Shown piece after piece: positions 1 to 61,036 of a DNA stretch of 64,000 bases (position 1 is its first letter; every line of letters begins with the position of its first letter). The stretch is from assembly GCA_034509925.1 (NCBI GenBank), contig CM067528.1, positions 8,904,001 to 8,968,000 on the forward strand, given 5' to 3'. Both the position numbers and the translations under genes were made by a program. This DNA is from Hirudinaria manillensis (Eukaryota; Annelida; Clitellata; Hirudinida; Hirudinidae). The notes under the pieces are model-generated. The model was not told the origin of the DNA. It worked only from the letters and a program-made list of their open reading frames with translations, and did not search any database.

Positions 1-200
1 GCACTTCCCGTTGGCGTCGTGCGGCCTGAAGCTGGCAGCCTTGCACTGTTTGCTCTTCTCGCAGAACTTGTGACACGCGTCCACGTCGGGTTGCTCGACT
101 GACACCATCCTGTCGTCGACGTAGTTGCCGTTTTGCTGGAACCCGTCGCAGGTTTGCGACTCCTTGCTTATCTCCCATTCGCCAGACTTGAGGTCCACTT
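1..200 (-). CDS. PAN module 23, partial at window edge
   Basis: The acceptor CTGCAG opens [18 protein letters not shown], with [12 protein letters not shown] further on, as in an ordinary apple domain. The exon continues off the left edge, so the gene's C-terminus is not in the window. Confidence 0.7.
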
Positions 201-1039: not shown

Positions 1040-1103
<64 letters not shown>

Positions 1104-4100
1104 GAGTTACCTGACTTAATCATGCGCCTGAATTCAATCAACAGCTCCACCTTGGCCAGGAAGGTGATGGAACCCGAACGCGTTTTGAGTTTCCCCCCGT
1201 CCATCTCGGCCTTCCCCTCCTTCTGGATGCTGCACTTTCCTTCCTCCCAGTTCGCCACGAAGCACTTGTCCTCGTCCAGGCACGCCCTGACGCACTCCTC
1301 GACTCCGCCCACCTTCACTTCCTTCAATCCCTCGTAAAACCATCCCCACCTGAAGTGCCAGAGTCTCCTCACTGCACAGATAAAAGCACAAAACGAACGT
1401 TTTACGATCTGTCGTTCGGGATTTAAAAAAAAAGGACTCTATGCCAACGTCGTCGTCATAGACTCTGCTTTGGAAGGCGCTTTTAGTCATTCGTTTAATT
1501 TAAGAGGTTTGTTATATAAATGTTTGTTATATAATAATCTGTTGCCATGGCAACAACATTTCTGAATTCATTTCAAAATAAAGCAAAAAAATAAAAACGA
1601 AACAATGTCTCTCAATCTACAAACATTTTCCAAGACGTTTGACCAGTTTCAGACATTGTTTGTCGTTCTTGCATCCGTAACCTGAGAAAAAAATGAAATC
1701 AAATTCAAATCATGCAAAGCATACCAACAGTTTGTCAATAATTTAAATTATTTAAATTTATTTATTAGATCATAAATGATTTAATATAATAATTTAATTA
1801 AGACAATTTAGTAATTTGTTTTATTTTCAGTGGGTTAATATCAATGCATCATTCAATTCGTAAAAACATCGTTCAGGTAAAATTACCTTCCTGGTCATCA
1901 GAGCTGTCTTCACCCTCACCAAATATAAATGCTCCAAAATAGAATCCTCCTATTCCTAGATTAAATAATGTCATTATAAATATTATAAATTATATTACGT
2001 TATAAGTATCATTAAATATCATTCCAGGTATAATTTATTAGTCATTACTTTCTTTCAAATTTACATGGTTTTTTTTAAATTTAAAAATAAAAAAACAGAA
2101 ATGTCTTAAAATGCAAACATCAAGAACATACTCACCGTGACCTTTCCGCTTCTCCCTGAGTTTCTTGAGCTTCCTCGCTTTGCCGAAGAGCGTGACGGTT
2201 CCTACGCGATCCTCCAGCTTCTCAGGCTTGAATTCAGTCGCTCCGTCTTCCTGGACGTAACACTTGTCGTCCTGCGACCAGCTGACCACGAAGCACTTGT
2301 CGTGGCTCTTGCAAACTTGGACGCACTCTTTGAAGCTCTGTACGTACACCACCAGCTTCAAGCCCTGATAGAATCGTCCCCATACGACGTTCCATCTCTT
2401 CTTCTCTGTGGAGGATTCGAAAAGATAATAAGGTCGCCAGGTGCACTGCTTGAAGTAATTTAATAATAATAATAATAATAAATTAAATATTCTGGACAAT
2501 ATTAATGAATGACATTAGAATATTAAGATGAAAATTGAAAAAGAGTTTGAGCAGAAAAACAATGCAATCGTTGTCTCACTGATATTTGCTCTCTTCAGAA
2601 GATCCAAACACTTTTGATCTTTCCGACAGCCGAGTTCTAGGAAAAACAATGGCAGGGATTTCAGATGAAGGTATATTTCATTATTTATATATAATATAAA
2701 CATAACATAACAAATAAAAGGTATGTAAATATTCCATTATAAATGTATATATGTTGTATAACCCTAAAATTATATAATCCAAAGAATTGTTTAAAATAAT
2801 ATGGCGATATAAAATTAGTGCTACTATACAGAGTCTTCGGTTAGGTTTGATTATGCAGCTCAACAAATCGGGAAACGAGCAAGGCAGAGAGAGAGAGTCA
2901 GGGAAATAGCAAATTCGAAGACCTCGACAATTAGGCATTGAATACCTTCCAAAGGCCATCTTCTCAATAAATCTAACTTCCATAAATTAGGACCCCGGAT
3001 TATTACAATATATATATATTTTTTGTCGCGTTGGAACTCGTCGAAAACTCTTCCCAAGCTCTTTACTGGCTCTTCTGAGACCGTCGGAATGCGTTGTCCT
3101 CCGGCGGTGAAGCACACGTCGCTGCGAACTCTCCCTCTTGTAAGAGAAAGACTCCGGGATTTTGCGGGCTTTAGAGCCATGCGACACCATTCGAGTAGAT
3201 CATTGAGCTTGTCAAGGGCTCTTTGGACAATCTGCTGCCTGTTTAGAACGATGGTGGTGTCGTCCATGAAAACCTTTACTGAAGGCATAAACACCCCTCT
3301 ACCCAAACGCATCTCGGGGATCTCAGCTCCTACTGCATTTAGTACGACTAAAATAGCAGGCACAAACAGCGATGGAGAAATGGCACATCCCATGGCTATG
3401 TCGATCTGCAGAGGGATCCAACACGTGGTGCAATCTTTTGTGGAAAAACGCATCACGAAACCGTTGAAGTATTCTTTGAGTACCTCAATTATCGTTCCAG
3501 GAGCATGGTGGATCTCTAACGTCTTCCAGAGGAGTTGATGGGGCACCGATCCATAGGCGTTGGCCAGGTCGAGCCACACGACGTGTAGACTGAGTTGGTT
3601 CCTTTTTGCGTTCTGGATCGCCTCCCATATCTCTGCTGTGTGCTCAATGCACCCCGGCACACTTGGGATGCCTCCCTTTTGAACTGCTGTGTCGATGTAC
3701 TTGTTTGTTGTCATGAACATAGTCAGCCTTGCCGCTAGACATGAGAAGTACAAGGAAATGGTTCGGGTTACCGCCTTCGCTGTCGTCAGTCGCCCTGTAC
3801 AGCAGGAGCACACGGTTGAGGCTGCCCCTCAGATCCATCGTTGAAGAATATAAAATTAGCAAAATCAGAACTTAATGGTCGCTCAACAACTCCAGTGACA
3901 GCAGGGTCCGCGACGTCATGCCGCAACTCCGCTGAGGAAGGAAATTCAGAGCCCAGGATGAAATTGAGGAATCCGAGGCAATCCTAGCCTTCGAGGAGAA
4001 AAGAGGACCCGTGCAGGTAGACCGCCATGGAGTCGGATGGAACCATTTTCCGAGATGGTCCACAGCGAATGTGCAGACAAAAGCCGCCATGATAATCCAA

Positions 4101-7100
4101 GAGAGAAGGCGAGAGATGGAGACCGAAAGGATTGCGCTGGCAGTGCAGCAAAGCCAGCAAGGACAGTGGACAACCTGGGAAGACGTCATCCAAAGATCCA
4201 TCGCATGGAAAGACATTTGGAAAAAGTCTCCCCTCCGCTTGGCATTCCTCATAAGGTCGGTCTACGACGTGCTCCCTTCCGGGTCCAACTTACAGAAGTG
4301 GGGGATGGTTGAAGACGTTTACTGCGAGCTCTGCGGAGGTGAACAGTCACTCCGACACGTGCTTTCATCATGCACGTACGCCCTTGCTCACGGTCGCTAC
4401 ACTTGGCGATATAACCAAGTCCTGCGGGTCATGGTCGAGGCGGCTAAGACGGCATGCTCCCAGGCAAATGCTCGAGAAATCGCGGCACCAAGAAGAATGT
4501 ACTTCTTAAGAGAGGGCTCAACACAGCACCGCAAAAGGAACATGGCCCAAAGGAGGGACTTGCTGTCCACGGCCAAAGACTGGACAGTTGCGGCAGACCT
4601 GCAGGGAGAAAGGCACTACCACCAGGTGCTACAAGAGAGCGGCAAGCGGCCCGATCTGGTGCTGGCGTCGGCAGCAACCGATTCCGTCATTATGGTAGAG
4701 CTGACGGTCCCATGGGAGGACCGAATTGATGTCAGCAATGCTCTGAAGAGCGACCGTTACGAAGAGCTGAAGATGGATTTAGAGGGGAAAGGTTATAGCG
4801 CCCGTGTGTTGCCAATAGAAGTCGGAGCGAGAGGGCTGGTAGGCAAGTCTACATACGCCTTTCTCAGGAAGATAGGCCTTTCAAACAGGCAAACCAAACA
4901 GTTCGTCCAGAAAATAGCCGAGTCCGCAGAATCGGCTTCTCATTGGATCTGGACAACGAAGGACCGAGGCTAGTCGTCCCTGTCCACTCCACCAAAACAG
5001 GGACTCCAGTGTAAGACCAGGAAAGAGACACCCCGGACGGCATTCACACCAAAGTGATATAAGAAGTGCCGCAATGGCGACTTTGACGGTTTTTCGGATG
5101 GCGGAGCTCTCGCGGAATTTTTCGTAAAATGGTAGTGCGAGTATTGTTTGTTTGTCGGAAGTCGTTGTCTGGTTATCGGAAGAAAGTTTCTGGCAGGGAC
5201 ATCCGCTTGATCAACGGATGCGGCCCAGCCCCCGAGAGTGTCAGGATTCAGGGACGAAACACTCGTAGAGGGGGCCATTCCTCTGATGATCCCTGCCAGA
5301 ACGCTCGTTCAAGAGTTTCTATCAATATATATATATATATTATTAATTTGTTTATGAGGCTTCTGATGAGCTTCCTTATCTTGTATCATACATATATATA
5401 TATATTATTAATTTGTTTATGAGGCTTCTGATGAGCTTTCTTATCTTGTATCAAATATATATATATATATACATATATATAGATTACCTGCGGAATGGAA
5501 AATTGCGTTGGTTACTCCTATACATAAGAAAGGACCCACCGTTCTCCCTGAAAACTACAGACCTATTTCGATCACATCAACTTGTTGTCGTGTAATGGAG
5601 AGGATCATCAACAAATCAATTATGCATCATTCACTGCACCACAAATTAATAAGCAAGGATCAGCACGGATTTGTTAGAGGCAGATCTACTGTTACAAATC
5701 TTCTTGAATGCATGCAACAGTGGTCGGAAGCACTCCAATCTAGACAGTCAGTGGATGTTGCATATCTCGACTTCAAAAAGGCTTTTGACTCAGTATCACA
5801 CTACAAACTCCTAAGCAAACTACCTCATTACGGCATCAGTGGCAACATTATAGGATGGCTCACCGACTTCCTATCATTGAGGAGCCAACGTGTTAATATC
5901 GGTGGAACTCTATCAGATACGGCCTGTGTCATCAGTGGCGTCCCCCAGGGCAGTGTACTTGGACCTACTCTCTTTTCACTATACATCAATGACCTCCCAA
6001 ATCTGTTTAAAGATACTAATATTGTCTGCAAACTATTTGCAGATGATGTTAAGCTCTATTGCCTCCCAACGCCTTCACAAACACAGTTACAATCAGCTCT
6101 TGATAAGGTCGCACAATGGAGTAATACATCGCAGTTGCAACTCGATAAATGCCAGTTCTTCACTATAGCCGGCCGCAGAAAGGAAGCAGGCGACCTCCGA
6201 AAATACTCCATCAACGGTCAGGCCCTTCAAAGCGTGGACATGATTAGAGATCTCGGAGTCGTAATAGGTCCTTCCCTGAAGTTTGTTACTCATATTGAAG
6301 CCATCACTCACAAAGCTGCCAAAATCTCTTGGATGATCAGGAAGTCTTTTTCTGCCAAAGACCAGGAAATCTTAAAGCTTGCCGTCTGCACTTACGTCAG
6401 ACCCATCCTCGAATATAGTTCACCAGCCTGGAATCCCCACCATGTATTTCTCATTGACAGAATTGAAAAGGTTCAGAAAAAATTCACTAAATCAATATCT
6501 TCTGTTGCATCATATTCATATATGGACAGGCTCAAACTCCTCAATCTCCCCACCTAGGAAGAGCGCCGCCTCCTGGCCGACTTGACCTTCTGCTTCAAAC
6601 TGCTGAAGGGTTTTGTAGACTCTCCCCTGAAACATTTCCTGGTTCTTCAAAGTTATCGCGGCACAAGGGGTCACAATCTCAAGCTAAAGCAATGCAAATT
6701 TTCTACCGACGTCGTCAAATATTCTTTTTGCAATAGGATTGTCCAACCTTGGAACTCATTACCACCTGATTTTATTAATGCTACAACCGTTTCTAGATTC
6801 AATGCACTTATAAGAGACTTTGATCTTAGCAAATACCTTACATATAACTAACTCTCATTGTAGTCATTATCGCCACCCTGATTCATACTGTCATTGTAAT
6901 TTGTCCTTGCTCGAATTGGAAATCGAAAACTGTGTTAGTGGTCCTATTGGGCCCTTCAGTTTGAATAAATGAATAAATATATATATATATATATATATAT
7001 GCAAAAAGGCATAAATAAAATCGATCAACTTATAAGTGAAATGCATAATATGCATATAAATAATAAAACGTATAAATTTAATAAAAACAAATGCAACCAG

Positions 7101-10100
7101 AGTCACGTTGTACTCTAGAATCGAACCTCCAAAGGCGGGTCCAAGCTTTTCATGGTCAGGTTTGCCATCCTCATCTTCATCCTCATCCTCATCATCATCA
7201 TCATATTCAAAGCCAAAAGAGAATTCTTCAAAAGTAAACCGACCTCCTATCGATTCAAATTATTATTTTTTAAAATATTTTTAACTTTCATTTGGAATTA
7301 AAAAAAAAAATTAAACTAATCACAGAACATGAATTCTGAATACTGCCAATGTTTAATCGAGTTCCAAATTTTGAGAAATTATAAATAAATAAATTAAGAA
7401 AGTATAGCTCACGCGCACGGCGCTATATAAATGACATATTATTATTATTATAAATAATTAAATTAAGGTAGAATTACACAGAACTTTGAATTGCAAATAG
7501 AAACAGATTAGACCAGATGATTATAGGCAGATAGAAACAGATTGGTGCACTTCTTTCAGGTATAAGAAATGGGGACAGAATTTGGTAAAATCAGAAAAAA
7601 ACCTAGGAGAGTTTATCTAAGCATTATAAAATTTAAATTTTCGGTTAAATTGTTCAGAATATTAAATCTGCCTTCCCTTGAGTACAAGCACTTTCCCTAA
7701 ATTATGAGGGGTTGGGGATTGGGATATGCCACCCACAAAACCCTGATATGCCAACGTTTCTATGCTATATTCGGACGGACTCACCGTGACTTCTGATGAG
7801 CTTCCTTATCTTGAAAAGCAGCTTCTTCTTCCCGACAAGAGTGAAGGATCCCTCCCTCGACTCCAAATCTTCGGGTTTCAAGTCTGCTCCTCCGCCTTCC
7901 TGGATGTAACACTTGTCGTCTGCCGACCAGCTCAGAACGAGGCAATCCTCCTTCTTCAGGCAAACCTCTGCGCACTCTTCGGGGTCCTTTGCCTCTACCT
8001 GTTTGGCCGGCTTGTAGAACGCTCCCCACTTGACGTACCAAAAGCTTCTAACTTTTCCGACGCGTTTGATGCGTTCCAGGCATTGATTGTCGCCCTGGCA
8101 ACCAAACTCTGTTGAAATAAACCAATAGTTACAGACTCTTAACAACAACAATATGCGTAAAATTGTCCTTATTATAATAAATTTTTTTTATTAGCAGTTT
8201 TTATCCATTCCACTTTGTCCATTTTGTTAGACATTACATTCCATCGGATTCATAATTCCTAAATTCTTAAGCAAGCCAAAACATAAATTAAAATTCAAAA
8301 AATAAACGCCACCCACTTCCAAAAGCAGGTCCAAGAGGTTCCTCTTCGTCTTCTTCATCTTCTTCTTCACCTAATTAAACGAACATTCGATAATATTACA
8401 GAAACTCACAACAAAACCGATGCTTAACGTTTAAATATATATAATATAGGATGAAAAAGATGACTGTTTCTTAAGATATCTTAAGAACTCAATGCCTTTC
8501 TGCCATTCAATTTCAAAGAACACAGAAAAAACTCAGAGGTGATAAATAAATAAAACAAATTTGACAAAATTTTAAATTTTAAATCGTGTCCAACCAGTTT
8601 GCCAAGGATAATTAATTTTTTTTTCACTTTAAGAGAATATTGATGAAGTCTAATGAATATTTATGAGTATTGCCAGCAGTGGCATCGACTCCAAATTGGA
8701 TTCCAAACCTGGCAACCAGAATCCTGGCTTCCCGGGCCGAACCAGGTGACCAGGCAGAAGATCATACTCATCCGGGAAATCTTCAGTCGTTCCTGGTTGA
8801 GATGTTAAGTCGAGTCACAAAGAGTAGAATCAATCTTAATCTCTATAATTGTTTATTAGTCATTTATTCAATTCTGACTAATTATAAAAGTGCAATCGTA
8901 TTATATTTAATAAAAATTAAAAATATAGATGAATTGTAAAAATATAATTTTAAAATGTATATGCAAAACCAGTCAAAATCTAAACGAATAACCTTTGATT
9001 TTACGGAATTTTCTCAACTCCAACAGTCTCTTCTTCTTGCCCAAAAGAGTGACTGCATCGTCTTGAGGTTCGAACTGTTCTGGTTTCAAATCCTTTTCGT
9101 CATCATCCTGAACGTAGCATTCTTCGTTTGCCCAAGTTACAGTAAAGCACTTGTCATCTCCTTTAAAGCAGACTTCTGCACATTCCAAGATGTCTTTGGC
9201 TTTCACCTTTTTCGACTTCTTGTAAATTCTTCCCAATAGGACGTGCCAATATCTTTTCACTTTATGAACAAGAGTTTTTGGTGAGCATGAAATGTGGACA
9301 AATTGTATGCAAACAAATGCTTAATTGCCAATGGCAAGCAAAGTATACCTTTTCCAAGCTTCCTGACGAGAACCTTGCATTTCTTGTTACTCCGACAACC
9401 CAAATCTATAATTAGTTTACAACCTCTTAAATCTTATATTCACAGACTCTATCCGGCTTAATAAAAGCAAATAAATGCAAATAAAATTCGAAAATGTCTG
9501 AGTTTAACAGTATATTATTATTATATTTAATTACTAAAATATTATTTTTAATACTATTTGAATAATAATAATAAAATCATGTCATTATTATTATTATTAT
9601 TATTAATTTATTCCAAATATACAAAATCAGACAAAAACCTCCAAATTCAGGTGAGGGTACCTCCTCCTCTTCACCTGGAAAATTGAAATCAATTATCTTT
9701 ATTATAAAATTTATTTAAAAATTCTGTAGTCGTTCGATAATTAATTTAATTCCACTTTTAAATTTAATAAAACAGAAATCGATTCCAAATGGCCGTCAAA
9801 ATCCACCTGGAAATTCCACTCCAGGCACTTCAGGAAGGTTTACATATTTTTCGCCCGTGATAAATCCAGTTTAAACAGGTAAAACAATGAATTTACTGCT
9901 ATTTTTCATGAAAATTACTTTTAAATGAACGTTAATTTGTAATAAAATGAGAGGCTCGAGTGATAACGGTAACAATGGTTCATTACCTTCTGGTGACTCA
10001 GGTTCTTCTTCTTCACTTGGTTCTCCTGGTCGAACCATCTCACCAGGTGGCAGTTCCTTGGGGAATCCTTCAGTTGTACCTGTGGTGAAATTAAGTTGCT

Positions 10101-25100: not shown

Positions 25101-28100
25101 GGCTATTTTATGAATTATATTACATCATTAATATACATATATATACTTGGGTACATATAATATATGAATATATTACATACTTTATTTGTTCAAGATATAA
25201 AACGTTACCAGGCAGTTTCTTGAATTTCCTGAATCTTTTGAGTCGTCTCACTTTGCCTAGGAAGGTGACTGCGTCGTCGCTCGGTTCCAAGTCCTTTGGA
25301 TTGACTTCATCGTCTCCGCCCTCTTGGACGTAGCATTTGTTGTCTTTGGTCCAACTTGCACCGAAGCACTTGTCGCTGTTCCTACACGCATCGACGCACT
25401 CTTTGACGTCTCTTGCGGGCACCGTTTTGGATCCTCTTAATTTCTTTCCGTGTTTTATGAACCAATATTTTCGTGCTTTGGAAAAACAGAGATTAAATGC
25501 TTCAACAATTTAATAAGAAGCGACACAAAATTCATAAAGTTATGAAACAATGCCAACATATTCTAGCTTCTTTCACCAGATCCAAGCAGTGCTGACTGTT
25601 CTGGCAGCCCAAATCTAAAGTAGAACAAACGAACAGGTTTATGAATATCTTTTCATTTTCTAATTTAACATTCATCATACCTCCATATTTGGCCTCTTTG
25701 TCTTTGGATTTGATTTCATCTTCACTAGAGGAACCATGACGTCCTCCTGGTGAAATTGAATTTATTATCAAATTCTAAATCCAAAAGACTTGTCATTCGA
25801 AAGATTAAATTGCAGCAGACGCGGAACAAACCGGGACGGAATTTCCTGTATTTTCTTAGCTTCAAAAGACGTCTCCTTCTTCCGAGTAGAGTGAGGGAAT
25901 TTGGACGCTTCTCCAGGTTTTCGGGCTTCAACTCTGCTAATGTGTCGTCCTGTATGAAGCACCTGTCGTCCGCCCAGCTCAGGACGAGACATCCGGTCTT
26001 GCTCAAGCAGATTTTGGCGCAATCCTTCAAGTCCGCTGCCGGAACCTCCTTGGTTCCCTTGTAGAACGTTCCCCACTTTTCGAACCAGTATTTCCGAACT
26101 TTGGATACAAAATTTGTCGATTATTCAGCCAATAATTCAGATTCTCTTGAATAATGATGAGGACAATGCAGCAGTATTATTTCAATTATTTTTAAAAAAC
26201 TCGACAATTTAAACTGAAAATATTGCTAACCTTTTCTTAATTTTGTAACAAGTTCCAGACAACGTTGTTCATTCTTGCAACCAACTTCTGTTAATGAAGG
26301 CAATTGCTTTAATTAAAAATAAATTTAAAGTCTTTCTGGGAAAAGCTTTACCAATACTTCGTTTTATTATTTATTTCAGCATTTAGAGTTTAATATTGAT
26401 TATGCCATAAATCATTAAATTCAATCTTTAGATTAACATATCTGCACTCTCTGACCTCCAAAGCTTGGTGGCAGAGTGTCATCGGATTCATCTTCACCTT
26501 TCAAAGTTTAATCGAATAAATTATTAAAACTATAAACCATAATTTCAACAATAATAAGAATAAATGGCAAAAATTGTTGTTCTTTAATAATCTTCATCTA
26601 CAAGATGTCATTGATACATCACCAAATTCACCTGACAAAACTGACTCACCTTTAGGAAATTCTAAATCATCTGGAAGTTCTAAATCCCCTGGAGGAAGTT
26701 CTATCTCACCTGGCTCTTCCCATTTACCTGGGAAATTCCATCCACCCGGATGAAATTCTATATCACCTGGCAGGCCCCATTCACCTGGTGGAAACTCTGA
26801 ATCTTCTGTCAGATCTTTGCCACCTTGTAAATTAATATGAAAACAGGTTGACTACTCTGTTTAATTCAGATCGATACATCAGGTTTTACAAGCAGACGTT
26901 ACTTCAAAAATCGATACAAACTAATATTAATTAAAACATTAAAAATACTAGCAATTTTGTTTAAACACAAATCTTGAACAGATATAAAACGTTACCAGGC
27001 AGTTTCTTGAATTTCCTGAATCTTTTGAGTCGTCTCACTTTGCCTAGGAAGGTGACTGCGTCGTCGCTCGGTTCCAAGTCCTTTGGATTGACTTCATCGT
27101 CTCCGCCCTCTTGGACGTAGCATTTGTTGTCTTTGGTCCAACTTGCACCGAAGCACTTGTCGCTGTTCCTACACGCATCGACGCACTCTTTGACGTCTCT
27201 TGCGGGCACCGTTTTGGATCCTCTTAATTTCTTTCCAAACTTTATGAACCAGGATTTTCGTCCTTTTTTGCAAAGACAAAATTTATTAAATGGTCTTATT
27301 GCCTTTAATTTATGTCATCATTTTGCTAACCAATGACAGCCAGTTTTACAATTTCCAAGCAGCGTTGATTGTTCTGGCAACCCAATACTATGGCAAAAAA
27401 TAAGATATGTGTATGTAAAAAATAACTATAGCACTCAATATGATTACTTTAAACCACAGAATTTTACAATACAAAGAACTGTCAGCTATTATTTCTCCAA
27501 GCGAAAATGTTAGGTAGAGCTTACTTAATTCGTTAATCAATTTATGAATTACGTTTAAGCAATTTCTTTGGTAAAATCAGAAATAATTATCGTCATATTT
27601 CAGAATTTGTAGTTACAAATACCTCCAAATTTATCCTGAAGTCGTTTTTCATCATCAGACGATTCTTCGTCGCCATGTCCTGAAAAAAAGGATGGAAATG
27701 AATCGAGAAGTTTCACCTAATCATCTGTTCAGGCAAACATTAGCAGGAAAACATCTTTTTTTATGGATTTATATTTAATATTTGAGTTTAATCGAAAGTG
27801 GAGCCCAGACGATCGTATGACTTTGAAACAAATATTTGTTATTAATGTCTAATTAATTTTAATTAATTAATTAAAATCGGAAGAGCATCTGCTCGGACGT
27901 GCCTGGAAACCAGGAACCGGGGAAATTCTCGTGGTCGTGAGGGAAATTAAATCCTTTGTCGTGGGATCCACCTTCGTGACCTTAGAATTAAAATTAAATT
28001 CAGCCTTTTAATTCTCAGTAATAAAAAAAATTTATTTTGATTTTCAACAATTAAAACATAACCACACGTAATGTAAATACTTAACTACTTGTAATTCGTG

Positions 28101-29623
28101 GAAATCCGCTTGGTCATTCATTTATTTTATTTTTTTCTAAACAAAATGAAGGGTCATACGATGATCACTTAGATATTTTGTAACAGCGTTAGGTAACAGA
28201 AAATAGAGTGAAACAGAAACAAGCAACATTGTCAACAGAAAATCAAGTTCACTTAATGGAGAGGTAGTTATTTAGGTTTAAGGATGACACGCACGATTTG
28301 AAGCAATATTTTAAAATAACGAAGGTAGGTTTGCCATTGATAAAAAAAATCAAGTTTACCATTATGGCCTTAGTAATTACAAATAGTAAGTCATAAATGA
28401 AGTGAACAACTCTGTGGATGTACCTGGAAACCAGGATCCAGGAAATTCCAAATGGCCAGGAGGGAATTCGAATTCTTCATCTTCCTCGGGACCTTGCGAT
28501 TGCAATGTAAGTTTAATTGTAAATTTAAAATGAAAATACATTCTTTTATACATAAACAAATAATTTATAAAATAAAAACTTTTATTGTAATAATTACAAA
28601 GCTGTTCTTTAAACAAAATAATTCAATAAATTAATTCAACTAACCGAGTTTTCCGAATTTCCTGAATTTCTTGAGGTTATTGACTCTGCCCAAGAACGTA
28701 ATGGCTCCCGGTCGGGATTCCAGATTTTCCAGTTTCAATTCAGGTTGTTCAACTTGCTGCATGTAGCATTTGTTGTCGACCCAAGTCACAGCAAAGCACT
28801 TGTCGGTCTTCTTGCAATTTTCGACGCAATCTTTGATGCCGGCCGCTGGAACATATTGCAGTCCCCTGTAAAACCATCCGTACCTGATGAGCCACAGCCT
28901 CCTCTCTGGAAATGAGAACAAAAATTCCCAAGTTTTTTTGAAGAGCAGATATCAAATGTCGAGTTGCAGGTGCTTCGGAAACTAACCGATGTTGGCCAAT
29001 TTCACGAGCTCCAGACACTTTTGGTCATTTTGACAACCTAATATTCAGATTTTAAATTATGTTTTAATAATGCAAATCAAAGATTTTGAATTTGTTTCTC
29101 AGCAAAAGTTCAACCAAGAATAGCAATCAACCTCCTTCATCGCCAAACTTGCTCCTGTCGCCACCATGAAAGTGTCCCCAGCCAAAGTGAAAAGATCCGC
29201 CATCTAGCGAACGTTTCAAAAATAAATAAACGCGACCTCACGTGACATTACAAAAGACATTTTAAAACGTTAAAAAAATTTAAAGAAAAGAATCTCCTTC
29301 TGAATTAAGTCAACTCACGGAATTTTTCGAATTTTCCAAATTTTCCGAATCGCAGGAATCGCTTAACTCTGCCGAGGAGCGTGAGTGCTCCGGGTCGAGT
29401 TTCCAGGTTCTCGGACCGCAACAGGCCCGTGCCCCCCTCTTCCAGGTAGCACTTCTTGTCCAACCAGCTCAGAACGAAGCAATTCTCTAGGCTGTCGCAC
29501 TTCTCTGCGCAGTCTCTGAGATTGGTCGCCGGAAATGCCTTCAGTCCCTTGTAAGTCCGGTCCCATTTGATGAACCAATCGTTTTCCACTACAAAATGGA
29601 ATATAATTGGTATATGTATACAG

Positions 29624-29692
<69 letters not shown>

Positions 29693-32600
29693 ACCTCCTA
29701 AATATATTTATATATATATTTATATATATAGTAAATATATCTGTAGTATATACATTAGTGCATTTGTATTAATATATAATATCTATTTATTTTACTACAG
29801 AACATATTAAATGTAGTATATTTATATTATTTTAGATATTTTTACTGTTAATTTTTAAATCGTGATTTCCAATTTTTTTACTAACCAATGCCAGACCCAC
29901 TGATTAGAGCCATGCACAATGGATTCTTCTGGCAACCCAATTCACCAAATGCAGGTCCAAGTTTATCATCTTCTGAACCGCCCCATCCTTCACCTGGTGT
30001 TAAAATGCGAGAAGTCGCTGAAAGATCAATCTATCGCCGATTGAATCCAACTGATCTGAATTCAATCACTGATTGAAACCGAATGATTTGAAAAAATATT
30101 TGACAAGACACTGGTTCTTTTTTAAATTATTATTATTATTATAATTATTCTTAATCCTCGTAAGTTAATTATTACATAATTTCAAACAATTATATTTTTC
30201 ATTCTCCAAGATATAGTTGATATTATAACTTGATGTGATGTGATTAAATTTAAGTAGGAAAGCAAGATGACCAGGAGAAAATTGGAAATATGTAGTAAGA
30301 TTTACATACCGAATGGGAAATGACCGGTTTGGAAACCGACACCAAAATGGAATTTTCCTCCTTCAATAAATCATTCGAGAAAAGCTCAATTAAATGTCTT
30401 TAAAAAAAGTTATAAACATTTAAATTTAAATTGTTTAAAATCTGTAAACACGCTTTTTTGATAACCTTGCATTTTCCGGTAGTTTTTGAATTTGAAGAGT
30501 CGTTTGATCTTGCCCAAGAAGGTGAATGCGTTTTTGACCGGCACGAGGTTTTCTGAGTGCAGCTCGGCTCTGCCTTCCAGCTGCAGGTGGCATTTGTTGT
30601 CCAACCAGCTCCCCACGTAACACGAGTCACTGTTCAAGCAGAACTCGTAACATTCTTTGACGTCTCTTGCACGCGTTTCTTTCAGTCCCTTGTAAAATGA
30701 GCCCCATTTGATGAACCAATCTCTCTCGGCTTCAGGAAAAAATGCGAACGATTTAAGGTATCGAGATATTGTTTAAGTCTTTTGGAATATTTCTTTCTGC
30801 GAAGTCATCTCGAATGATTGCCGATCAAAACGAAATAAATATAATAAAAATTAATAAATCAAAGTATTATTTCATCCTTTACCTATGTTGGCCAATTTGA
30901 AGAGACCCAAACACACCGGATTATTCTGGCATCCCAGAACTACAAAAATGTCAAACGATTCGAATTCCTAATTATATTCTCAACAATATTTATATAAATA
31001 TTTAAATAAAAAAACACCTTTTACGAATATCAGATGGACGTAATTTTAGAAACTGTTTGGATAATATTTATTCATGTAATATAACCTCCGAAAGCAGGTC
31101 CAAGGGTTTCGTCTGCACCACCATCATCACCACCACCACCAATGCCACCTTGGAAAGAATTTCAAAGACTCCATCAAACTCAATGCGACAACAATAATAA
31201 CATTTTGACGTTATTTTACAAAACTTATTTCTTTTATGACAATAAAAGTCATAAAAAATTTGAAAGTTGAATTTCTAGGAATGATGATGTTTTACGCCAT
31301 CAAAGCAGTGTTTTTCGAATCCAACCTCCCCATTGGAACCATCCTCCAGCACTGTGGAACTGATATTGTTTGCCAAACTTGAGTCCTGACCATACATGTC
31401 ATACACGTGTAACAGCCAATATTGAGTTGTAATTATTACTTTATGTAATTATTATACTAGTTGTAAAATTATCAATGTAATTAATTTCTAATAAAGTACA
31501 CTGCAATAATCAATTACTTATTTAAGTGTTTGCCAATTCATCCGAGAATCTGAGGGTCAGAAAACTCAGACTTCATCAATCTCTAAAGCTTATCTGATCC
31601 ACATAAAATTGAAAATTATCCCAGGCGGTTATAATTTGATGACGTACCGTACATTTTCCTGTTACTTTTGAATTTGAAGAGATGTTTAATCTTGCCCAGG
31701 AATGTAATGGCGTTATTTTGTGGTACAAGGTTTTCAGAGTGCAGTTCAGCTTTGCCATCCTGCTGCGTGTAGCATTTGCCATCAACCCAACTTGCTACAT
31801 AACAGGAGTCGCTATTTGTACAGGATTCAGAACATTCTTTGACATTTGCTGCCTTAGTTTCCTTCAATCCCTTGTAGAACGAGCCCCATTTGATGAAATA
31901 ATGTCCTTGTACTGCAAGAAGTCATGAGTAAATTATAAAAACAGTTGCTTAGAACATGAACACATAATGCTATTGATATGTTTAATTCTTCGATCATAAA
32001 CAAAAACATTTATCTATGAAATAGAGGGGTTTACCTAGATTAGCTAAGTTGACGAAACTTGAGCACAATGGATTTTTTTGACAACCTAAAACTGTCAAAA
32101 TATTCAATAATGTTACCTCTATCGGCAAGAAATATTATTTTAATTCGTAGTGGTACGCCTTAATCACTACGTAAGTACTACTGTACTTATAAGGCACAAC
32201 CTCCAAATGCGGGTCCAAGAGTTTCTTCCCCTTGGCGGCCACCATCTTCATCTGACAAATTAAGAAATTATCGAAAACATCAGTAATATTATAATTAACA
32301 AACATCACGACATCCAAATATCATGTACATATCAGAATGTGTACATAACTCGAAGTGTTAAATTCATTTCCCCTGCATCGGCCGGCAGGCAGAATTTTCA
32401 GTCTCGGGAAAGTTTAATAAATATTAAGAAGGAAAATAAAAAATAAGGAACTATTTGGCTAACCAGCCATTTAAACTTTTTGCCACAATTAATTTATAAT
32501 TTAAACGTTTCTGTTTCTCTAATTTATTTATTTATTAATTTTTCAATTCTGCTTTCAAAATCCTACTTCTCCACCTTAATGTAATGCAAATTGGCTGGCG

Positions 32601-34700
32601 TCGCTTAAATGTATATCATTAGTATGGGTTTTCAAATTTCAATCTTTTACAAATAAGGGAATGAAAATCAACGTAATATATACCGTATTCGACAACCTCC
32701 CATTTTTCCCCTTTGACTAACTGTCCAGGCGGAAGCTCAGAGAACTTCCGATTTCTTCTAAATTGCAAGAGAAGTTCTATTCTGGCCAAGAGAGTGACGG
32801 CGTTTTTCTGAGGCTTTAATTTTCTCTCATTTATTACAATTTCACCGAATGATTGAATTAAGCATTTGCCCTCTGTAAGCCACGTCAAAGCAAAGCAGAC
32901 GTCACTGGAAAGGCAAGCATCAACGCAGTTCTTACAACTTGTGGCCGCGACTTCTTTCAACCCCTCGTATATATATCCCCATTTGAGAAGCCAATACTTG
33001 ATATCTGTAAAATGCGCTCACACTTTTACCGGAACCATAAAACATTAAAAATGTTATAAAAGAAATATTGGAGACGGTACAGATGATCAAATGCTCTGAA
33101 ACTAACCCACGCCTCTGAAAAGAGCCGTTCTGTCGAATCTACGCAAAAAGTTGTAAGCCCCTTTCTGAACCTTCACATCGCTTTTTAAAATGGTGAAGTC
33201 TTTCATGTGGATCCAACAGGGACGATTTGTGTTTTTATCCCAATCCACAGCCCCACATTTCTCGCGATTGAAGCATAAGTCCAAACATTCTTGAGGTGTG
33301 GCAGCATCGACTTGATCCAAACCCGGACCAGTGTAGTGCATGTCGTAGCTTATCTCCCAAAATCCCGTACCTTAAATAAGGAATTGTTTATTTAAATAGA
33401 CTACTAAAATTTCTTAGTTACAATTTTTGACTAAAACCTTCTTAGCTAAAGCATCCTAACCGCGAAAGGAACTCTGGTTCACTTACTTATACCCCTGATG
33501 ATGTTTAGGCATTGTCTGTTCAAGACGAAGTTGATCACAGATTCGCGCGGCACCCGGCTCTCCAGTACAACTTTAAAGGGTTTTGTTTGAACCCAACAAG
33601 TCGATTTTGTTATAAAGTCCCAATCCACCAGGGAACAATTTGGATCATCTTCGCACATCTTCAGACATTCCTGTATTTGCACGGAAGTCCCCAATGGTTC
33701 ATTAACTTGGGACAAGCCCAAATATTGGATACCAGGGAAGGCAATCCAGCACGGATGTTCTATTAAATTTAACGATTGGTGTATAGTAAGAAAAATATAA
33801 ATTGAGTCATTTAGAAAAGAAGAAAGTTTTTAATGCTTTAATAAAAGTTAATAAATTAGTTGTTTTATAATCTTTTACAAGCTTCGAAAGTAGGCTCTAC
33901 TATAATTTATTTCTCTTTAAGTCTCGGCGTTTAAAGCCCGACAATGTCCAATGAAGAAATATGAAATACATTAAAATGCTAAATAAACATTGGGAGCCAG
34001 CTAGCGCGAGAAAAATCCTTTATGCCCTCGAGTTGATATATATATGTTTTCTCTTCCCAAAATGGCCCAAAATGCTTTGCTATCGTTCAATCGGTTCAAC
34101 AAAAAGTGGGGACAAAAGAAAAACTTACCAACATCCTTTAACAAATCGAGACACCTCTGGTCGGTCATGTAATTCGTGACTCCCTTCTGGAATTTCAGTT
34201 TGCTGACTTCAAAGGCTTCAGTCTGCAACCAACATTGGGGTTTCGTTGAGATATCCTTGTCAAAAGTCTTGCAAACACGCGAGGCCCTGCAAAGGGACTG
34301 ACAAACATTCTCTTCGTCTGCACCTGGAACTTGTTGAAGTCCTTTTTCAGCTACGTGCATGTTTAGACCGACCTTCCAGCAATCCTGATCTGTTGGTGTA
34401 ATTTAGATTTTTATTTATTTTTACAGCTTCGCTGCCTGATTGAATGAAGCATTTGCCATATCTAAAACGTGTCGAAGCTAAGTAGACGTCACAAGCATAA
34501 ATGTAGTTATTAAAATATAAGGACCAGAAAAGACATTATTTATAATTGGAATTTTTAACATATATTTTTTATTCGATTTAGTAATTTTTTAAATAATTTG
34601 GTCGAAATCTCATAAGATGAAATAAACAATTATCTTTCAACTTAACTTCCAATGAAGAAACCAGAGTTACAAAGGCCAAAACTACGGCCCCTAACATCAT
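1..34700 (-). CDS. Giant secreted multi-PAN/apple protein with Pro-Gly-Gly-Glu repeat exons (3' partial)
   Basis: This is one gene as I read it. A signal peptide exon at 34,647-34,700 is followed by about 72 exons down to the left edge, where the sequence is still coding. Summed coding length is about 13.6 kb, at least 4,500 residues. PAN/apple domains (C-x3-C, hydrophobic core, second Cys pair) recur 23 times and bind proteins or glycans in known families. Between them lie acidic linkers, C-x5-C mini-exons and Pro-Gly-Gly-Glu repeat exons. I placed boundaries by GT/AG sites. Apart from the phase-0 join after the signal peptide, every exon keeps phase 1 at both ends, so the frame stays open throughout. 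I saw no internal signal peptide or terminal stop, which argues for one gene, but a transcript is needed to exclude two or three adjacent genes. A structural, adhesive or mucus-type extracellular role is inferred. Confidence 0.75.
493..858 (-). CDS. PAN module 22, long six-cysteine form
   Basis: A 366-nt exon has its PAN cysteines at [25 protein letters not shown] and NCDG, plus an extra one near the start (ELCTTE). The six-cysteine pattern is restored, and there is no basic tail or separate mini-exon. This marks the end of the derived array. Confidence 0.75.
1040..1101. repeat. AAT microsatellite
   Basis: About 20 AAT units lie in an intron of the multi-PAN gene. Confidence 0.95.
1111..1955 (-). 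CDS. PAN module 21
   Basis: The linker is 1,887-1,955 ([17 protein letters not shown]), the mini-exon 1,625-1,681 (GCKNDKQC) and the PAN core 1,111-1,371 ([16 protein letters not shown], four cysteines). The mini-exon donor GTTTGT is weak but keeps phase. An AAT microsatellite follows in the intron. Confidence 0.75.
2136..2636 (-). CDS. PAN module 20: mini-exon and PAN core
   Basis: The mini-exon is 2,580-2,636 ([15 protein letters not shown]) and the PAN core 2,136-2,405 ([23 protein letters not shown], tail [13 protein letters not shown]). The phase-1 join gives KKKRW across the intron. Confidence 0.75.
3020..3750 (-). mobile_element. RLE-type retrotransposon copy 2, inverted RT segment
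   Basis: The minus strand encodes the central reverse transcriptase domain: [40 protein letters not shown], the catalytic FMDDTT, and then [10 protein letters not shown]. It is homologous to copy 1 at 16 kb but inverted relative to its own 3' half, which starts at about 3,751. About 75 codons present in copy 1 are missing at the junction. The 5' end of the element is truncated. It lies in an intron of the multi-PAN gene. Confidence 0.8.
3751..5325 (+). mobile_element. RLE-type retrotransposon copy 2, 3' half and tail
   Basis: Coding runs from [14 protein letters not shown] through a C-x2-C-x7-H-x4-C knuckle ([17 protein letters not shown]) to a restriction-like endonuclease with RPDLVL and [11 protein letters not shown], ending near 4,973. 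There is one early in-frame stop (KIRT then TAG, near 3,875). A 3' untranslated tail shared with the two other copies ends in TTTCTATCAAT and AT repeats. The RLE and knuckle place it in the R2/NeSL-like group, not the APE group. Confidence 0.8.
5189..5300 (+). other. Conserved 3'-tail stem of RLE element, copy 2
   Basis: Arm TCTGGCAGGG (5,189-5,198) pairs with CCCTGCCAGA (5,291-5,300) and encloses about 92 nt. Confidence 0.65.
5326..5480. repeat. About 78-nt tandem repeat with PAN-exon remnant
   Basis: Two copies of an AT-run, then ATTAATTTGTTTATGAGG, then a 24-nt stretch (5,360-5,383 and, with one mismatch, 5,437-5,460) lie head to tail. The 24-nt stretch matches the 3' end of the module 19 PAN exon near 7,790-7,813 and encodes KIRKLIRS on minus. 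Confidence 0.7.
5482..6990 (+). mobile_element. CR1/Jockey-like non-LTR retrotransposon, 5' truncated
   Basis: Coding starts inside the reverse transcriptase ([30 protein letters not shown]). It continues through [21 protein letters not shown] and catalytic FADDVKLY to a C-terminal WNSLPPDF region ending at 6,851. One in-frame stop (TAG near 6,555) interrupts it. The 3' tail ends in GAATAAAT repeats and an AT run. No endonuclease is present in this copy. It is a dead insertion in an intron of the multi-PAN gene. Confidence 0.8.
7127..7225 (-). CDS. Acidic linker exon of module 20
   Basis: A 99-nt exon reads EFSFGFEY followed by about a dozen Asp/Glu and closes EKLGPAFG. It is separated from its mini-exon by a 4.5-kb intron loaded with retrotransposons. 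Confidence 0.7.
7397..7452 (+). repeat. SINE/LINE-like 3' tail fragment
   Basis: CACGGCGCTATATAAATG followed by ATT repeats resembles the conserved tails of many invertebrate SINEs and LINEs. It is too short to classify. Confidence 0.35.
7785..8792 (-). CDS. PAN module 19, mini-exon fused to PAN core
   Basis: The linkers are 8,709-8,792 ([14 protein letters not shown]) and 8,317-8,370 ([18 protein letters not shown]). Exon 7,785-8,108 encodes GCQGDNQC and the PAN core ([15 protein letters not shown]) with no intron between them. Four core cysteines are present, and the tail is [14 protein letters not shown]. Confidence 0.75.
8993..10079 (-). CDS. PAN module 18 with a 21-nt micro-exon
   Basis: The exons are linker 9,987-10,079 ([18 protein letters not shown], then Glu-rich), tentative micro-exon 9,807-9,827 (PGVEFP), linker 9,639-9,674 ([12 protein letters not shown]), mini-exon 9,349-9,405 (GCRSNKKC) and PAN core 8,993-9,259. 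It is a diverged fifth member of the module 14-17 family, but it has no long repeat exon. Confidence 0.7.
10260..11418 (-). CDS. Repeat exon and PAN module 17
   Basis: The exons are repeat exon 10,993-11,418, linker 10,832-10,867, mini-exon 10,616-10,672 and PAN core 10,260-10,526. Against module 16 the core has EPRDD for EPQDD, and the repeat exon has a few single changes. The intervening introns match. Confidence 0.75.
11602..12760 (-). CDS. Repeat exon and PAN module 16
   Basis: The exons are repeat exon 12,335-12,760, linker 12,174-12,209, mini-exon 11,958-12,014 and PAN core 11,602-11,868. The unit is offset exactly 1,342 nt from module 17, introns included, so it is a recent tandem duplicate. 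Confidence 0.75.
12944..14290 (-). CDS. Repeat exon and PAN module 15
   Basis: Exon 13,670-14,290 (621 nt) opens [20 protein letters not shown] and continues with PGGEEPVS repeats. It is 195 nt longer than the two following copies. The linker is 13,515-13,544, the mini-exon 13,300-13,356 and the PAN core 12,944-13,210. The PAN core is identical in protein to modules 14 and 16. Confidence 0.75.
14474..15622 (-). CDS. Repeat exon and PAN module 14
   Basis: Exon 15,200-15,622 carries 141 codons of [13 protein letters not shown] repeats. It opens [12 protein letters not shown] rather than with the TTEG segment. The linker is 15,045-15,074 ([10 protein letters not shown]), the mini-exon 14,830-14,886 (GCRSNKKC) and the PAN core 14,474-14,740 ([15 protein letters not shown], tail [16 protein letters not shown]). 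It is the first of four nearly identical tandem modules. Confidence 0.75.
15792..15875 (-). CDS. Gly-rich linker exon
   Basis: An 84-nt phase-1 exon begins [19 protein letters not shown]. Acceptor ACCAG and donor GTGAGC are canonical. Confidence 0.6.
16040..19437 (+). mobile_element. RLE-type retrotransposon copy 1, longest copy
   Basis: This is the most complete of three copies. The order is an N-terminal region ([16 protein letters not shown]), the reverse transcriptase with [24 protein letters not shown] and FMDDTT, a thumb/linker, the knuckle [17 protein letters not shown], and the endonuclease (RPDVVL and [11 protein letters not shown]) ending near 18,996. Two frameshifts (about 17,440 and 18,560) break the single ORF, and the N-terminal zinc fingers expected in this group are absent. 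A conserved 3' tail follows. It inserted in the sense opposite to the host gene, in the intron between 15,875 and 19,643. Confidence 0.85.
19292..19405 (+). other. Conserved 3'-tail stem of RLE element, copy 1
   Basis: Arm CCGACAGGG (19,292-19,300) pairs with CCCTGTCGG (19,397-19,405). Relative to copies 2 and 3, two base pairs differ on both arms, so pairing is kept. Confidence 0.65.
19525..19612. repeat. Imperfect AAT/ACA-rich simple repeat
   Basis: A low-complexity AATAATAACAATAAT-type tract lies next to a linker exon. Confidence 0.8.
19643..19708 (-). CDS. Linker exon, TEG type
   Basis: A 66-nt phase-1 exon encodes [13 protein letters not shown] and continues Pro-rich. It resembles the TTEG openings of the repeat exons of modules 15-17 and the linkers of modules 18 and 19. 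The intron after it carries a 3.4-kb retrotransposon. Confidence 0.6.
19913..19972 (-). CDS. Linker exon after the giant repeat exon
   Basis: A 60-nt phase-1 exon encodes [20 protein letters not shown] between CATAACAG and GTTTTACC. It is supported only by splice sites, phase and composition. Confidence 0.45.
20211..22853 (-). CDS. Giant Pro-Gly-Gly-Glu repeat exon (881 codons)
   Basis: A single 2,643-nt exon starts [16 protein letters not shown] and then repeats an 8-9 residue unit, PGGEVPV followed by S, F, Y or L, about 100 times. Variants carry an extra Glu (PGGEEVPV). Larger blocks also recur: an [16 protein letters not shown] segment appears at about 20,945, 21,605 and 22,655 (minus strand). 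The composition is Pro, Gly, Glu and Val, with no Cys and almost no Lys, so it should be disordered, extended and strongly negative. Gly is not at every third position, so it is not collagen. The acceptor is AAAAAAG|CT and the donor G|GTGAGA, both phase 1. Because the unit is a multiple of three, other frames and the opposite strand are open too; those frames are shadows. Confidence 0.8.
23033..23704 (-). CDS. PAN module 13, last before the giant repeat exon
   Basis: The exons are linker 23,636-23,704 (acidic, ending RFG), mini-exon 23,416-23,472 (DCRNDPKC) and PAN core 23,033-23,305 ([21 protein letters not shown], tail [12 protein letters not shown]). The donor after FPGL joins in phase 1 to the repeat exon at 22,853. 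Confidence 0.75.
23914..24925 (-). CDS. PAN module 12
   Basis: Exon 24,830-24,925 is a shorter sister of the module 10 Pro-Gly linker ([17 protein letters not shown]). The acidic linker is 24,638-24,694, the mini-exon 24,335-24,391 (GCQNDPLC) and the PAN core 23,914-24,180, close to module 10. The linker-plus-PAN block therefore appears to have duplicated as a unit. Confidence 0.75.
25209..25746 (-). CDS. PAN module 11
   Basis: The exons are linker 25,681-25,746 (charged), mini-exon 25,558-25,614 (GCQNSQHC) and PAN core 25,209-25,475. Residues 14-85 or so of the core are identical to module 9 at the protein level, from [13 protein letters not shown] to the basic tail. This points to a recent exon duplication or gene conversion. 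Confidence 0.75.
25832..26823 (-). CDS. PAN module 10 with long acidic Pro-Gly linker
   Basis: Exon 26,650-26,823 encodes 58 residues of acidic Pro/Gly motif ([12 protein letters not shown] and variants). The short linker is 26,456-26,497, the mini-exon 26,231-26,284 (GCKNEQRC) and the PAN core 25,832-26,098 ([11 protein letters not shown], tail [14 protein letters not shown]). Modules 10 and 12 are close paralogues. Confidence 0.75.
26996..28492 (-). CDS. PAN module 9 with three linkers, one using a GC donor
   Basis: The linkers are 28,424-28,492 and 27,903-27,980, which both end FPGSWFP and so look duplicated, and 27,623-27,679 (acidic). The mini-exon is 27,331-27,387 (GCQNNQRC) and the PAN core 26,996-27,262. 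The second linker ends in G|GCACGT where its sister has G|GTACAT, so a GC-AG intron or a dead exon must be assumed. Confidence 0.7.
28645..29203 (-). CDS. PAN module 8
   Basis: The exons are linker 29,132-29,203 (Gly/His-rich), mini-exon 28,987-29,037 (GCQNDQKC) and PAN core 28,645-28,905 ([10 protein letters not shown], four cysteines, tail [10 protein letters not shown]). All keep phase 1. Confidence 0.75.
29319..30360 (-). CDS. PAN module 7 with fused linker and mini-exon
   Basis: The linker 30,310-30,360 is Gly/His/Phe-rich. Exon 29,886-29,993 encodes an LGPAFG-type linker and the GCQKNPLC segment with no intron between them, so the usual intron has been lost. The PAN core is 29,319-29,588 ([11 protein letters not shown], four cysteines). 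A long TA microsatellite lies in the intron at 29,626-29,690. Confidence 0.75.
29626..29690. repeat. TA microsatellite
   Basis: About 32 uninterrupted TA units lie between PAN module 7 and its linker. Confidence 0.95.
30466..31385 (-). CDS. PAN module 6 with two linker exons
   Basis: The linkers are 31,326-31,385 (Gly/His/Trp-rich) and 31,086-31,148 (Gly/Asp run ending LGPAFG). The mini-exon is 30,883-30,939 (GCQNNPVC) and the PAN core 30,466-30,729. The core has four cysteines and a Lys/Arg/Phe tail. It is closest in sequence to module 5 (shared LHSENLVP). Confidence 0.75.
31648..32251 (-). CDS. PAN module 5: acidic linker, C-x5-C mini-exon, PAN exon
   Basis: There are three exons: the linker 32,201-32,251 ending LGPAFG, the mini-exon 32,035-32,085 (GCQKNPLC), and the PAN core 31,648-31,911 ([10 protein letters not shown], four cysteines, then a basic tail). 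It is the first module in which the closing-helix segment is a separate exon with two cysteines. Confidence 0.75.
32684..33004 (-). CDS. PAN module 4 with C-terminal extension
   Basis: The core begins [17 protein letters not shown], setting the pattern for most later modules (aromatic-W, W-G-x-x-Y-x-G-L-K). It has four cysteines. The exon runs on past the basic tail FRRNRKF into a Pro/Gly-rich stretch and ends VVEYG. The donor is the weak GTATAT, supported by phase 1 continuity into the next linker. Confidence 0.75.
33107..33370 (-). CDS. PAN module 3, outer cysteines lost
   Basis: The domain starts TGFWEIS, with Phe where the first Cys stood, and ends RRFDRTALF, without the last Cys. [12 protein letters not shown] and PCWIHMK are retained. 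The two partners of the outer disulfide are therefore missing together. It is transitional between modules 1-2 and the derived modules. Confidence 0.8.
33487..33759 (-). CDS. PAN module 2, six-cysteine form
   Basis: This exon has the same layout as module 1: PCW at the start, ECLKMC, NCSLVDW, STCW and closing RQCLNII. The acceptor is TTTAATAG and the donor GTAAGT, with phase 1 at both ends. It is the second and last N-terminal module with all six cysteines. Confidence 0.8.
34129..34384 (-). CDS. PAN module 1, six-cysteine form
   Basis: One exon holds a complete PAN/apple domain with DCW at the start, the paired cysteines VCQSLC, then VCKTF, QCW and a closing [11 protein letters not shown]. 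These six cysteines match the usual three-disulfide apple fold. The closing helix is the segment that later becomes a separate mini-exon. Confidence 0.8.
34647..34700 (-). CDS. Signal-peptide exon of the multi-PAN gene
   Basis: The exon encodes [18 protein letters not shown], a hydrophobic secretory signal. It ends in a phase-0 GTTAAG donor. It joins in frame to the CAG|GAT acceptor at 34,384, giving a mature start near Asp-Cys-Trp of the first PAN domain. I chose the first of two adjacent ATGs. All other introns in the gene are phase 1. Confidence 0.7.
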
Positions 34701-37709: not shown

Positions 37710-38109
37710 CTTTGTTTAGATCGGGTTCCCAACCAAACTGCATATTGAGTGATAGATCTCGTAAATATTCAAGTGAAAAACTTATCGGAATGGTTGTAAA
37801 AAAAAACAATTTATAATTTTATTATAATTATTTTAAAATCGTTAACGTTTAACTAATTTTCCATGTCGTTAAAAGGAATTAGCAATAAGTTTAGCAGAAA
37901 CGCAAATAAAGTAATGTTATATTATGTATTAAACGTATTTATAAAGTGGAAAGTATTTGTAGATTTCCATCAAAGTTTGAGATGTTATTGCTTTGCTTTA
38001 CAGTGGTTGCGAACTTGTAAATAATGTAGGGATGATAGTCCATTATTTGTTTGGGAAGGGGCCCGATTGCTCAAACTAGTCTGGATGCAGATTAAGACAT
38101 TTTCATAAA
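37710..38109. promoter_or_regulatory. Putative bidirectional promoter region, NDUFB4 / lipase-like gene
   Basis: Only 400 nt separate the two divergent start codons. No TATA box or CpG-rich core stands out, and the region is AT-rich. Confidence 0.45.

Positions 38110-50693: not shown

Positions 50694-55064
<4,371 letters not shown>

Positions 55065-59540: not shown

Positions 59541-59569
<29 letters not shown>

Positions 59570-60630: not shown

Positions 60631-61036
<406 letters not shown>

Follow-up and report, generated by a model that had tools for sequence, protein, structure and literature searches.

Organization of the locus

The window, a 64,000-nucleotide stretch of the Hirudinaria manillensis genome (GCA_034509925.1, contig CM067528.1, forward-strand positions 8,904,001 to 8,968,000), carries on its minus strand a gene, here called A, that runs from window position 34,700 to 301 bases below position 1 (C3:8,903,699; negative coordinates lie below position 1) and heads a tandem array A-B-C-D. 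A sequence-only reading had proposed one giant secreted protein of about 73 exons and more than 4,500 residues in one continuous frame, with a signal peptide, 23 PAN/apple-like modules, acidic linkers and several Pro-Gly-Gly-Glu exons, and our model bears out this description and adds the strand, minus, which that reading left unstated. The joined frame of 73 exons comprises 13,725 coding bases and encodes 4,574 residues (about 495 kDa), with 144 of 144 splice dinucleotides being GT/AG and a single terminal stop (EKK-stop) at -301. A TATA-like box lies near exon 1 at 34,896, and an AATAAA starts 60 bases past the stop. We built the model with phase weighting, masked two retroelement-bearing introns for the gene finder, corrected exons by hand and compared the result with paralogue C; without masking, the finder called 83 exons. 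Exons starting in phase 1 numbered 70 of 73, a count partly built in by the weighting of -8 per non-phase-1 exon end. A hydropathy scan, not a signal-peptide predictor, placed the strong hydrophobic 12-mers of A within residues 1-17 and found one marginal 12-mer at 702, indicating a signal-like N-terminal stretch without a membrane anchor.

The 23 PAN modules of A fall into three classes, namely three N-terminal apple modules, 18 derived modules and two C-terminal PANs, and the repeating plan consists of a two-cysteine link exon, a PAN exon of about 267 bases, a Pro-Gly exon and an acidic exon, nearly all of them phase-1 symmetrical. In the order of transcription, exon 1 (34,647-34,700), which holds the start codon and the signal-like stretch and resembles the start of C, is followed by the apple-type modules m01 (34,129-34,384, six cysteines, with relatives P0002/P0003), m02 (33,487-33,759, six cysteines) and m03 (33,107-33,370, four cysteines), and then by m04 (32,684-33,004), the first derived module, which has an extra C-terminal stretch. 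An acidic linker ending in LGPAFG (32,201-32,251), also present in C, and a two-cysteine link (32,035-32,085) lead to m05 (31,648-31,911); a Gly-rich linker (31,326-31,385), a Gly-rich/acidic linker (31,086-31,148) and a link (30,883-30,939) lead to m06 (30,466-30,729); and a linker (30,310-30,360) and an acidic linker fused to a two-cysteine link (29,886-29,993) lead to m07 (29,319-29,588). Next come a linker (29,132-29,203), a link (28,987-29,037) and m08 (28,645-28,905); a Pro-Gly/acidic linker (28,424-28,492), a linker (27,918-27,980), an acidic linker (27,623-27,679), a link (27,331-27,387) and m09 (26,996-27,262); and a Pro-Gly-rich linker without a Pfam match (26,650-26,823), an acidic linker (26,456-26,497), a link (26,231-26,287) and m10 (25,832-26,098). 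Module m11 (25,209-25,475) is preceded by an acidic linker (25,681-25,746) and a link with a weak donor (25,558-25,614), m12 (23,914-24,180) by a Pro-Gly-rich linker (24,818-24,925), an acidic linker (24,638-24,694) and a link (24,335-24,391), and m13 (23,033-23,305) by an acidic linker (23,636-23,704) and a link (23,416-23,472). The largest exon (20,211-22,853) then encodes an 881-residue PGGE(V/E)PV(S/Y/F) repeat with a 24-base period and 92 PGGE motifs.

Downstream of this block, a small linker exon conserved with C (19,913-19,972) and a further linker (19,643-19,708) are followed by a 3.8-kb intron (15,876-19,642; 0.34 kb in C) containing a plus-strand retroelement (PF00078 at 16,033-17,502, PF13966 at 17,354-18,565), and then by a Pro-Gly-rich linker (15,792-15,875). 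Five near-identical derived modules come next, each preceded by a Pro-Gly exon, a short acidic linker and a two-cysteine link; the order begins with the PGGE exon at 15,200-15,622 (10 PGGE), the acidic exon at 15,045-15,074 and the link at 14,830-14,886 before the first copy, m14 (14,474-14,740). The corresponding exons are 13,670-14,290 (14 PGGE), 13,515-13,544 and 13,300-13,356 for m15 (12,944-13,210); 12,335-12,760 (8 PGGE), 12,174-12,209 and 11,958-12,014 for m16 (11,602-11,868); 10,993-11,418 (8 PGGE), 10,832-10,867 and 10,616-10,672 for m17 (10,260-10,526); and a short Pro-Gly/acidic exon at 9,987-10,079, with 9,639-9,674 and 9,349-9,405, for the last copy, m18 (8,993-9,259). A Pro-Gly linker (8,709-8,792) and an acidic linker (8,317-8,370) precede a single exon in which a two-cysteine link and the derived module m19 are fused (7,785-8,108), and a very acidic linker (7,127-7,246) precedes a 4.5-kb intron (2,637-7,126; 0.27 kb in C) with reverse-transcriptase sequence inside (PF00078 at 2,863-3,828). 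The 3' part consists of a link (2,580-2,636), derived m20 (2,136-2,405), an acidic linker (1,887-1,955), a link (1,625-1,681), derived m21 (1,111-1,371) and the C-terminal-type modules m22 (493-858) and m23 (1-200 in the window). Exons lying entirely inside the window thus number 71 of 73, since exon 72, which carries m23, extends to -98 and exon 73, with the stop, lies outside at -290 to -301.

The motif PGGE occurs 132 times in A, always in the five repeat exons, and PG occurs 210 times. Searching the genome for PGGE repeats gave at least 30 matches, of which 29 of 30 were at this locus and the remaining one was weak, with 8 stops. Charge is distributed in blocks: over their final 20 residues the 18 derived modules have +37 charges per 100 residues, compared with 0 in the other five modules, and the two-cysteine link exons carry +14 per 100 residues, the Pro-Gly exons -18.5 and the remaining linker exons, acidic or Gly-rich, -21. 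Read from its translation, the predicted chain is a block polyampholyte with cysteine-knotted beads. A Pfam match of the whole PGGE exon to the copper chaperone PCuAC (1.6e-8) was rejected as a composition artefact, as zero stretches passed alone; two weak NCBIfam matches (best 0.044) were taken as chance, and Rfam gave 0 matches in the window.

Several other features surround the gene. Upstream of A, NDUFB4-like exons lie on the minus strand at 37,020-37,715 (8.9e-7 and 1.8e-4), and the plus strand carries a Tc3-like transposase in two overlapping open frames at 41,055-42,049 (HTH_Tnp_Tc3 matches in the first frame), a 456-residue open frame at 46,366-47,733 with no Pfam match at E<=0.01, a glycosyl hydrolase family 47 (class I alpha-mannosidase) gene from 51,370-51,636 onward with one exon matched, and a glycosyltransferase family 11 (fucosyltransferase-like) exon at 62,991-63,986. 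A minus-strand retroelement occupies 58,469-60,714, with reverse transcriptase in 59,527-60,714 (PF00078, 5.3e-31) and no Pfam match in its 3' frame; around -12,000 to -14,500 there is a similar copy. A TTA repeat of about 95 copies spans 60,752-61,036.

The tandem array and coding evidence

Gene B lies downstream of A, outside the window, with its start MLKCAIFLTFLSFARST at -3,409 and its stop at -9,727 (C3:8,894,273-8,900,591). Its hand-corrected model has 17 exons encoding 1,203 residues, with 9 PAN modules and acidic linkers, and follows the same plan as A except that Gly-Thr (GTGTGGT) repeats stand where A has PGGE. An 838-residue piece of B searched against 7,186 candidates gave none at E<=1e-3. 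Gene C, a raw gene-finder draft, extends from -20,331 to about -46,111 and has its own signal-like start similar to that of A; it lacks m01-m04 and has 8 copies of the KRYW module versus 5 in A. The segment C3:8,827,657-8,883,700 comprises the tandem duplicates C and D, the latter seen by motif scan, and a remnant with partial modules at 8.827-8.836 Mb. The A and C copies lie about 46 kb apart. Comparing A plus B with C plus D, the aligned pieces were mostly 92-98% identical outside the module and PGGE repeats and 79-88% inside, with one further piece at 84%, while repeated PAN exons had mean similarities of 0.98 and 0.99 within A or C and 0.94 between them. A TAG occurs in one module match of B, where it lies past the modelled exon end, and in one of D.

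With a free start, the gene finder scored 1990 on the A strand, compared with 48-59 for five first-order Markov shuffles, 449 for the opposite strand, and 156 and 87 for the two strands of window 35-64 kb. Because the finder was trained on A and the shuffles also yielded 20-23 phase-1 exons each, neither this score nor the phase count is independent proof. The independent coding test is instead the comparison of A with its tandem duplicate C, whose draft matches A in the place of splice sites for most exons. One-to-one pairing was possible for 33 of 72 exons, leaving out the cluster of five module copies, exons >600 bases and those lacking a partner of equal length with >85% identity. For the 33 pairs, dS was 0.040 and dN 0.014, giving a dN/dS of 0.36 (Fisher p 7.6e-6). 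The ratio was similar in 11 PAN exons (0.351) and 22 linker and link exons (0.378), was 0.365 with one exon mispaired, and was accompanied by no stops in the 33 paired C exons; identity across 23 introns comparable in length was 96.6%. On this sequence comparison, the exons of A and C are diverging under purifying selection. A plus-strand or chance reading of A is rejected on the strand scores and above all on dN/dS.

The sequence-only reading would have failed had A contained several independent genes with their own signal peptides. The hydropathy scan found no second signal-like stretch inside A, and B and C have their own starts. As the only strong hydrophobic stretch is N-terminal and the neighbouring genes have signal peptides of their own, we take A to be one gene, and a division into several is unsupported.

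Taken as a decaying or unexpressed repeat locus that merely resembles a gene, A would fit the retroelements in two of its introns, the absence of m01-m04 from C, the partial modules of the remnant and the TAG in one module match each of B and D, but its frame is open over 73 exons with every splice dinucleotide intact, its dN/dS is 0.36 and related modules occur in another source, so that we regard this reading as very improbable.

Module classes and their relatives

Four core cysteines form invariant columns in 18 of 18 aligned rows (18 of the 23 modules were aligned). The six-cysteine apple type is characterized by an additional outer (N-C) cysteine pairing. This outer pair is present in m01 and m02 and absent from m03 and the aligned derived modules, and so defines a subtype only; the derived modules have in addition a basic C-terminal end. 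Against Pfam PAN_1, 17 of 18 module rows matched at E<=1 (best 2.4e-7), and the one row given in full reached 19.0 bits, under the 21.4 cut-off. A genome-wide PAN_1 search at E<=0.001, in which 150 of 206 candidates were scored, listed only m22 and m13 among the 23 modules of A. These weak matches indicated that most modules of A are divergent PANs.

A tree of 42 modules (m15-m17 omitted as copies, and P0008 also omitted) recovered the C-terminal class (A m22-m23 and B m8-m9) with support 99/98, the apple class (A m01-m03, B m1-m2, chromosome-4 modules, P0002 and P0003) with 95/83 and the derived class (25 rows) with 95/97. Eight relatives came from other sources, through searches that reach only sequences sharing exact words and within a length range: six (P0001, P0003, P0004, P0006, P0007 and P0008) presumably lie on one contig of 5,546,610 bases, and the remaining two on contigs of 4,762 and 1,140 bases. 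Seven of the eight were placed in the tree, most of them grouping with individual modules of A or B (P0002/P0003 with m01, 100/100; P0006 with B m4-m5, 97/91; P0004 with m07, 93/88), an arrangement suggesting that modules of the A and B kinds already existed before the relatives' species split off.

Within the 148-Mb genome (23 contigs), where match counts are lower bounds, m10 gave at least 50 matches, 50 of 50 at this locus, and m02 gave at least 56, the majority of them on chromosome 4, with others on 3, 6, 7 and 12. By these searches the derived module appears to be confined to this locus. Clusters of apple-type PAN exons at C4:12.672-12.727 Mb, C4:7.311-7.318 Mb and C7:1.933-1.950 Mb are seemingly tandem multi-apple genes. 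The genome also contains 63 antistasin matches and a match to the hirudin family (26 of 64 positions) that includes one TAG.

A profile of the apple class (13 modules, three from A) searched against PDB found saratin first (2k13, E 1.4e-6, the match spanning positions 2-80 of 88) and LAPP second (1i8n, 0.0014), and m02 alone found neither of them in PDB. The derived-class profile found factor XI first (7.1e-5), with saratin at 0.0081, and with a mixed profile of 18 modules the values were 1.2e-6 for factor XI and 1.4e-5 for saratin; the apple and derived class profiles match each other (hhalign 97%). On profile evidence, the apple modules of A are related to leech saratin/LAPP, with kinship over the whole domain, and the predicted A chain has 23 modules where that family consists of small single-domain secreted proteins. 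The sequence-only reading knew of no named protein with this architecture. None turned up in our homologue searches, which were run with shorter pieces than full-length A and gave hits without names or no hits, and within that scope the claim stands; at the level of its modules, however, A has named leech kin. By sequence, A belongs to the PAN family, falls outside saratin/LAPP by architecture, and is matrix-like only insofar as we infer it.

Proposed role and alternative explanations

From the architecture, which is read directly from sequence, we infer role and tissue, as the sequence-only reading did for a matrix role: A would be a self-associating, oppositely charged extracellular matrix protein of cocoon, cuticle, mucus or adhesive, to which we give slightly better than even odds (about 0.55). 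Small, disulphide-knotted PAN beads with positive tails would alternate with flexible negative spacers, and such opposite charge blocks would draw neighbouring A chains together laterally (coacervation); cross-links between chains may form through the link cysteines. Extensibility could come from the 881-residue PGGE block serving as a spacer, and the atypical modules at the N- and C-terminal ends could be binding heads. The likeliest products would be the cocoon wall, the cuticle or a surface mucus, or an adhesive from glands. That B keeps the plan and changes the repeat is as expected if the spacer is physical, not catalytic. Also in favour of this reading are the one open frame with its sole signal-like start, the charge blocks, the separation of the module classes in the tree, the finding of derived modules and PGGE repeats at this locus in the genome searches, the low dN/dS of PAN and linker exons alike, and the greater likeness of repeated PAN exons within A or C than between them.

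The main rival is a multivalent salivary protein, in which tandem saratin/LAPP-related modules would attach at the bite site to collagen or clotting factors, and the long chain would either raise avidity or be cleaved to release single inhibitors. The best PDB match of the apple-module profile is saratin (E 1.4e-6), the nearest solved relatives of these modules are salivary platelet inhibitors, and excerpted text of one study reports PAN proteins in medicinal-leech salivary secretion (PMC7191736). Yet 18 of the 23 modules are derived away from saratin, having lost the outer cysteine pair and gained a basic tail, their profile fits factor XI better than saratin (7.1e-5 versus 0.0081), and the solved inhibitors are small (103 and 126 residues in PDB), in contrast to a 495-kDa chain carrying PGGE and acidic blocks, all of which makes a salivary role unlikely in our judgement.

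A housekeeping matrix inside the body, extracellular or luminal, such as gut lining, nephridia or basement matrix, rather than an external secretion, would have a precedent in LET-653, whose PAN domains, in the portion of the report available, attach it to matrix in the lumen of the worm's excretory duct (PMC4970718). In searches that reach only sequences sharing exact words and within a length range, however, the derived module had relatives in just one other large contig and one small one, which suggests a lineage-specific use, and we consider an internal matrix improbable.

For the self-associating extracellular matrix protein, a more specific version can tentatively be put forward, as a possibility that we ourselves rate as doubtful. 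In leeches, a PAN module related to platelet inhibitors may have been turned into the bead unit of an oppositely charged block polymer specific to the lineage, in which charge would condense basic-tailed PAN knots and acidic/PGGE spacers, and link cysteines would harden them into cocoon or adhesive material, the polymer's length being tuned by module copy number (5 in A versus 8 in C). If true, the block polymer would add a new class to the natural protein materials.

Neither PAN modules nor their use in tandem is new, and matrix proteins with PAN domains have been described. Our searches of open-licence literature and for homologues found neither the derived module nor a set of 23 modules nor a plan combining charge blocks with PGGE, and the same literature yielded nothing that ties a leech PAN domain to the cocoon. 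Judged by its predicted protein, A looks like undescribed leech building material and is a candidate gene for a leech secreted material, with exon boundaries, given here, that make cloning or proteome searching possible. One module family would then serve both small inhibitors and a long repeated building unit, and the array offers a case in which module copy number and spacer type vary between paralogues with the coding frame under purifying selection.

Comparison with known systems

Saratin (2k13) and LAPP (1i8n) share with A the common PAN core and, in the apple modules, a Cys-Trp start. They have 103 and 126 residues in PDB, whereas A has 23 modules, mostly derived and basic-tailed, with PGGE and acidic linkers. 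The Apicomplexan microneme proteins MIC4/MIC5 and the factor XI heavy chain also contain PAN/apple domains, and in the profile search factor XI and MIC4 were matched in several stretches per chain. To our knowledge, these proteins have fewer modules than A and no PGGE or charge-block linkers.

Another protein to compare is C. elegans LET-653 (PAN-mucin-ZP), which like A is secreted and combines PAN with a flexible low-complexity region, and for which the accessible part of the report shows binding to fibrillar luminal matrix via PAN (PMC4970718). The same text describes the LET-653 PAN domains as partly dispensable for function, which counts against the matrix analogy (PMC4970718). Unlike LET-653, A has 23 PAN modules, and Pfam found no ZP domain in its module rows and five other pieces.

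Within leeches, the Theromyzon cocoon protein is described, in the excerpt consulted, as a unit of one antistasin-like and one EGF domain repeated six times, antistasin-like being a kind of module that leeches also use as an anticoagulant (PMC12838937). Like A, it is a leech secreted protein that repeats a module kind also used against clotting, and it differs from A in that the repeats are antistasin-like and EGF, not PAN (PMC12838937). By analogy, it would be a parallel case in which an inhibitor-like module serves as building material.
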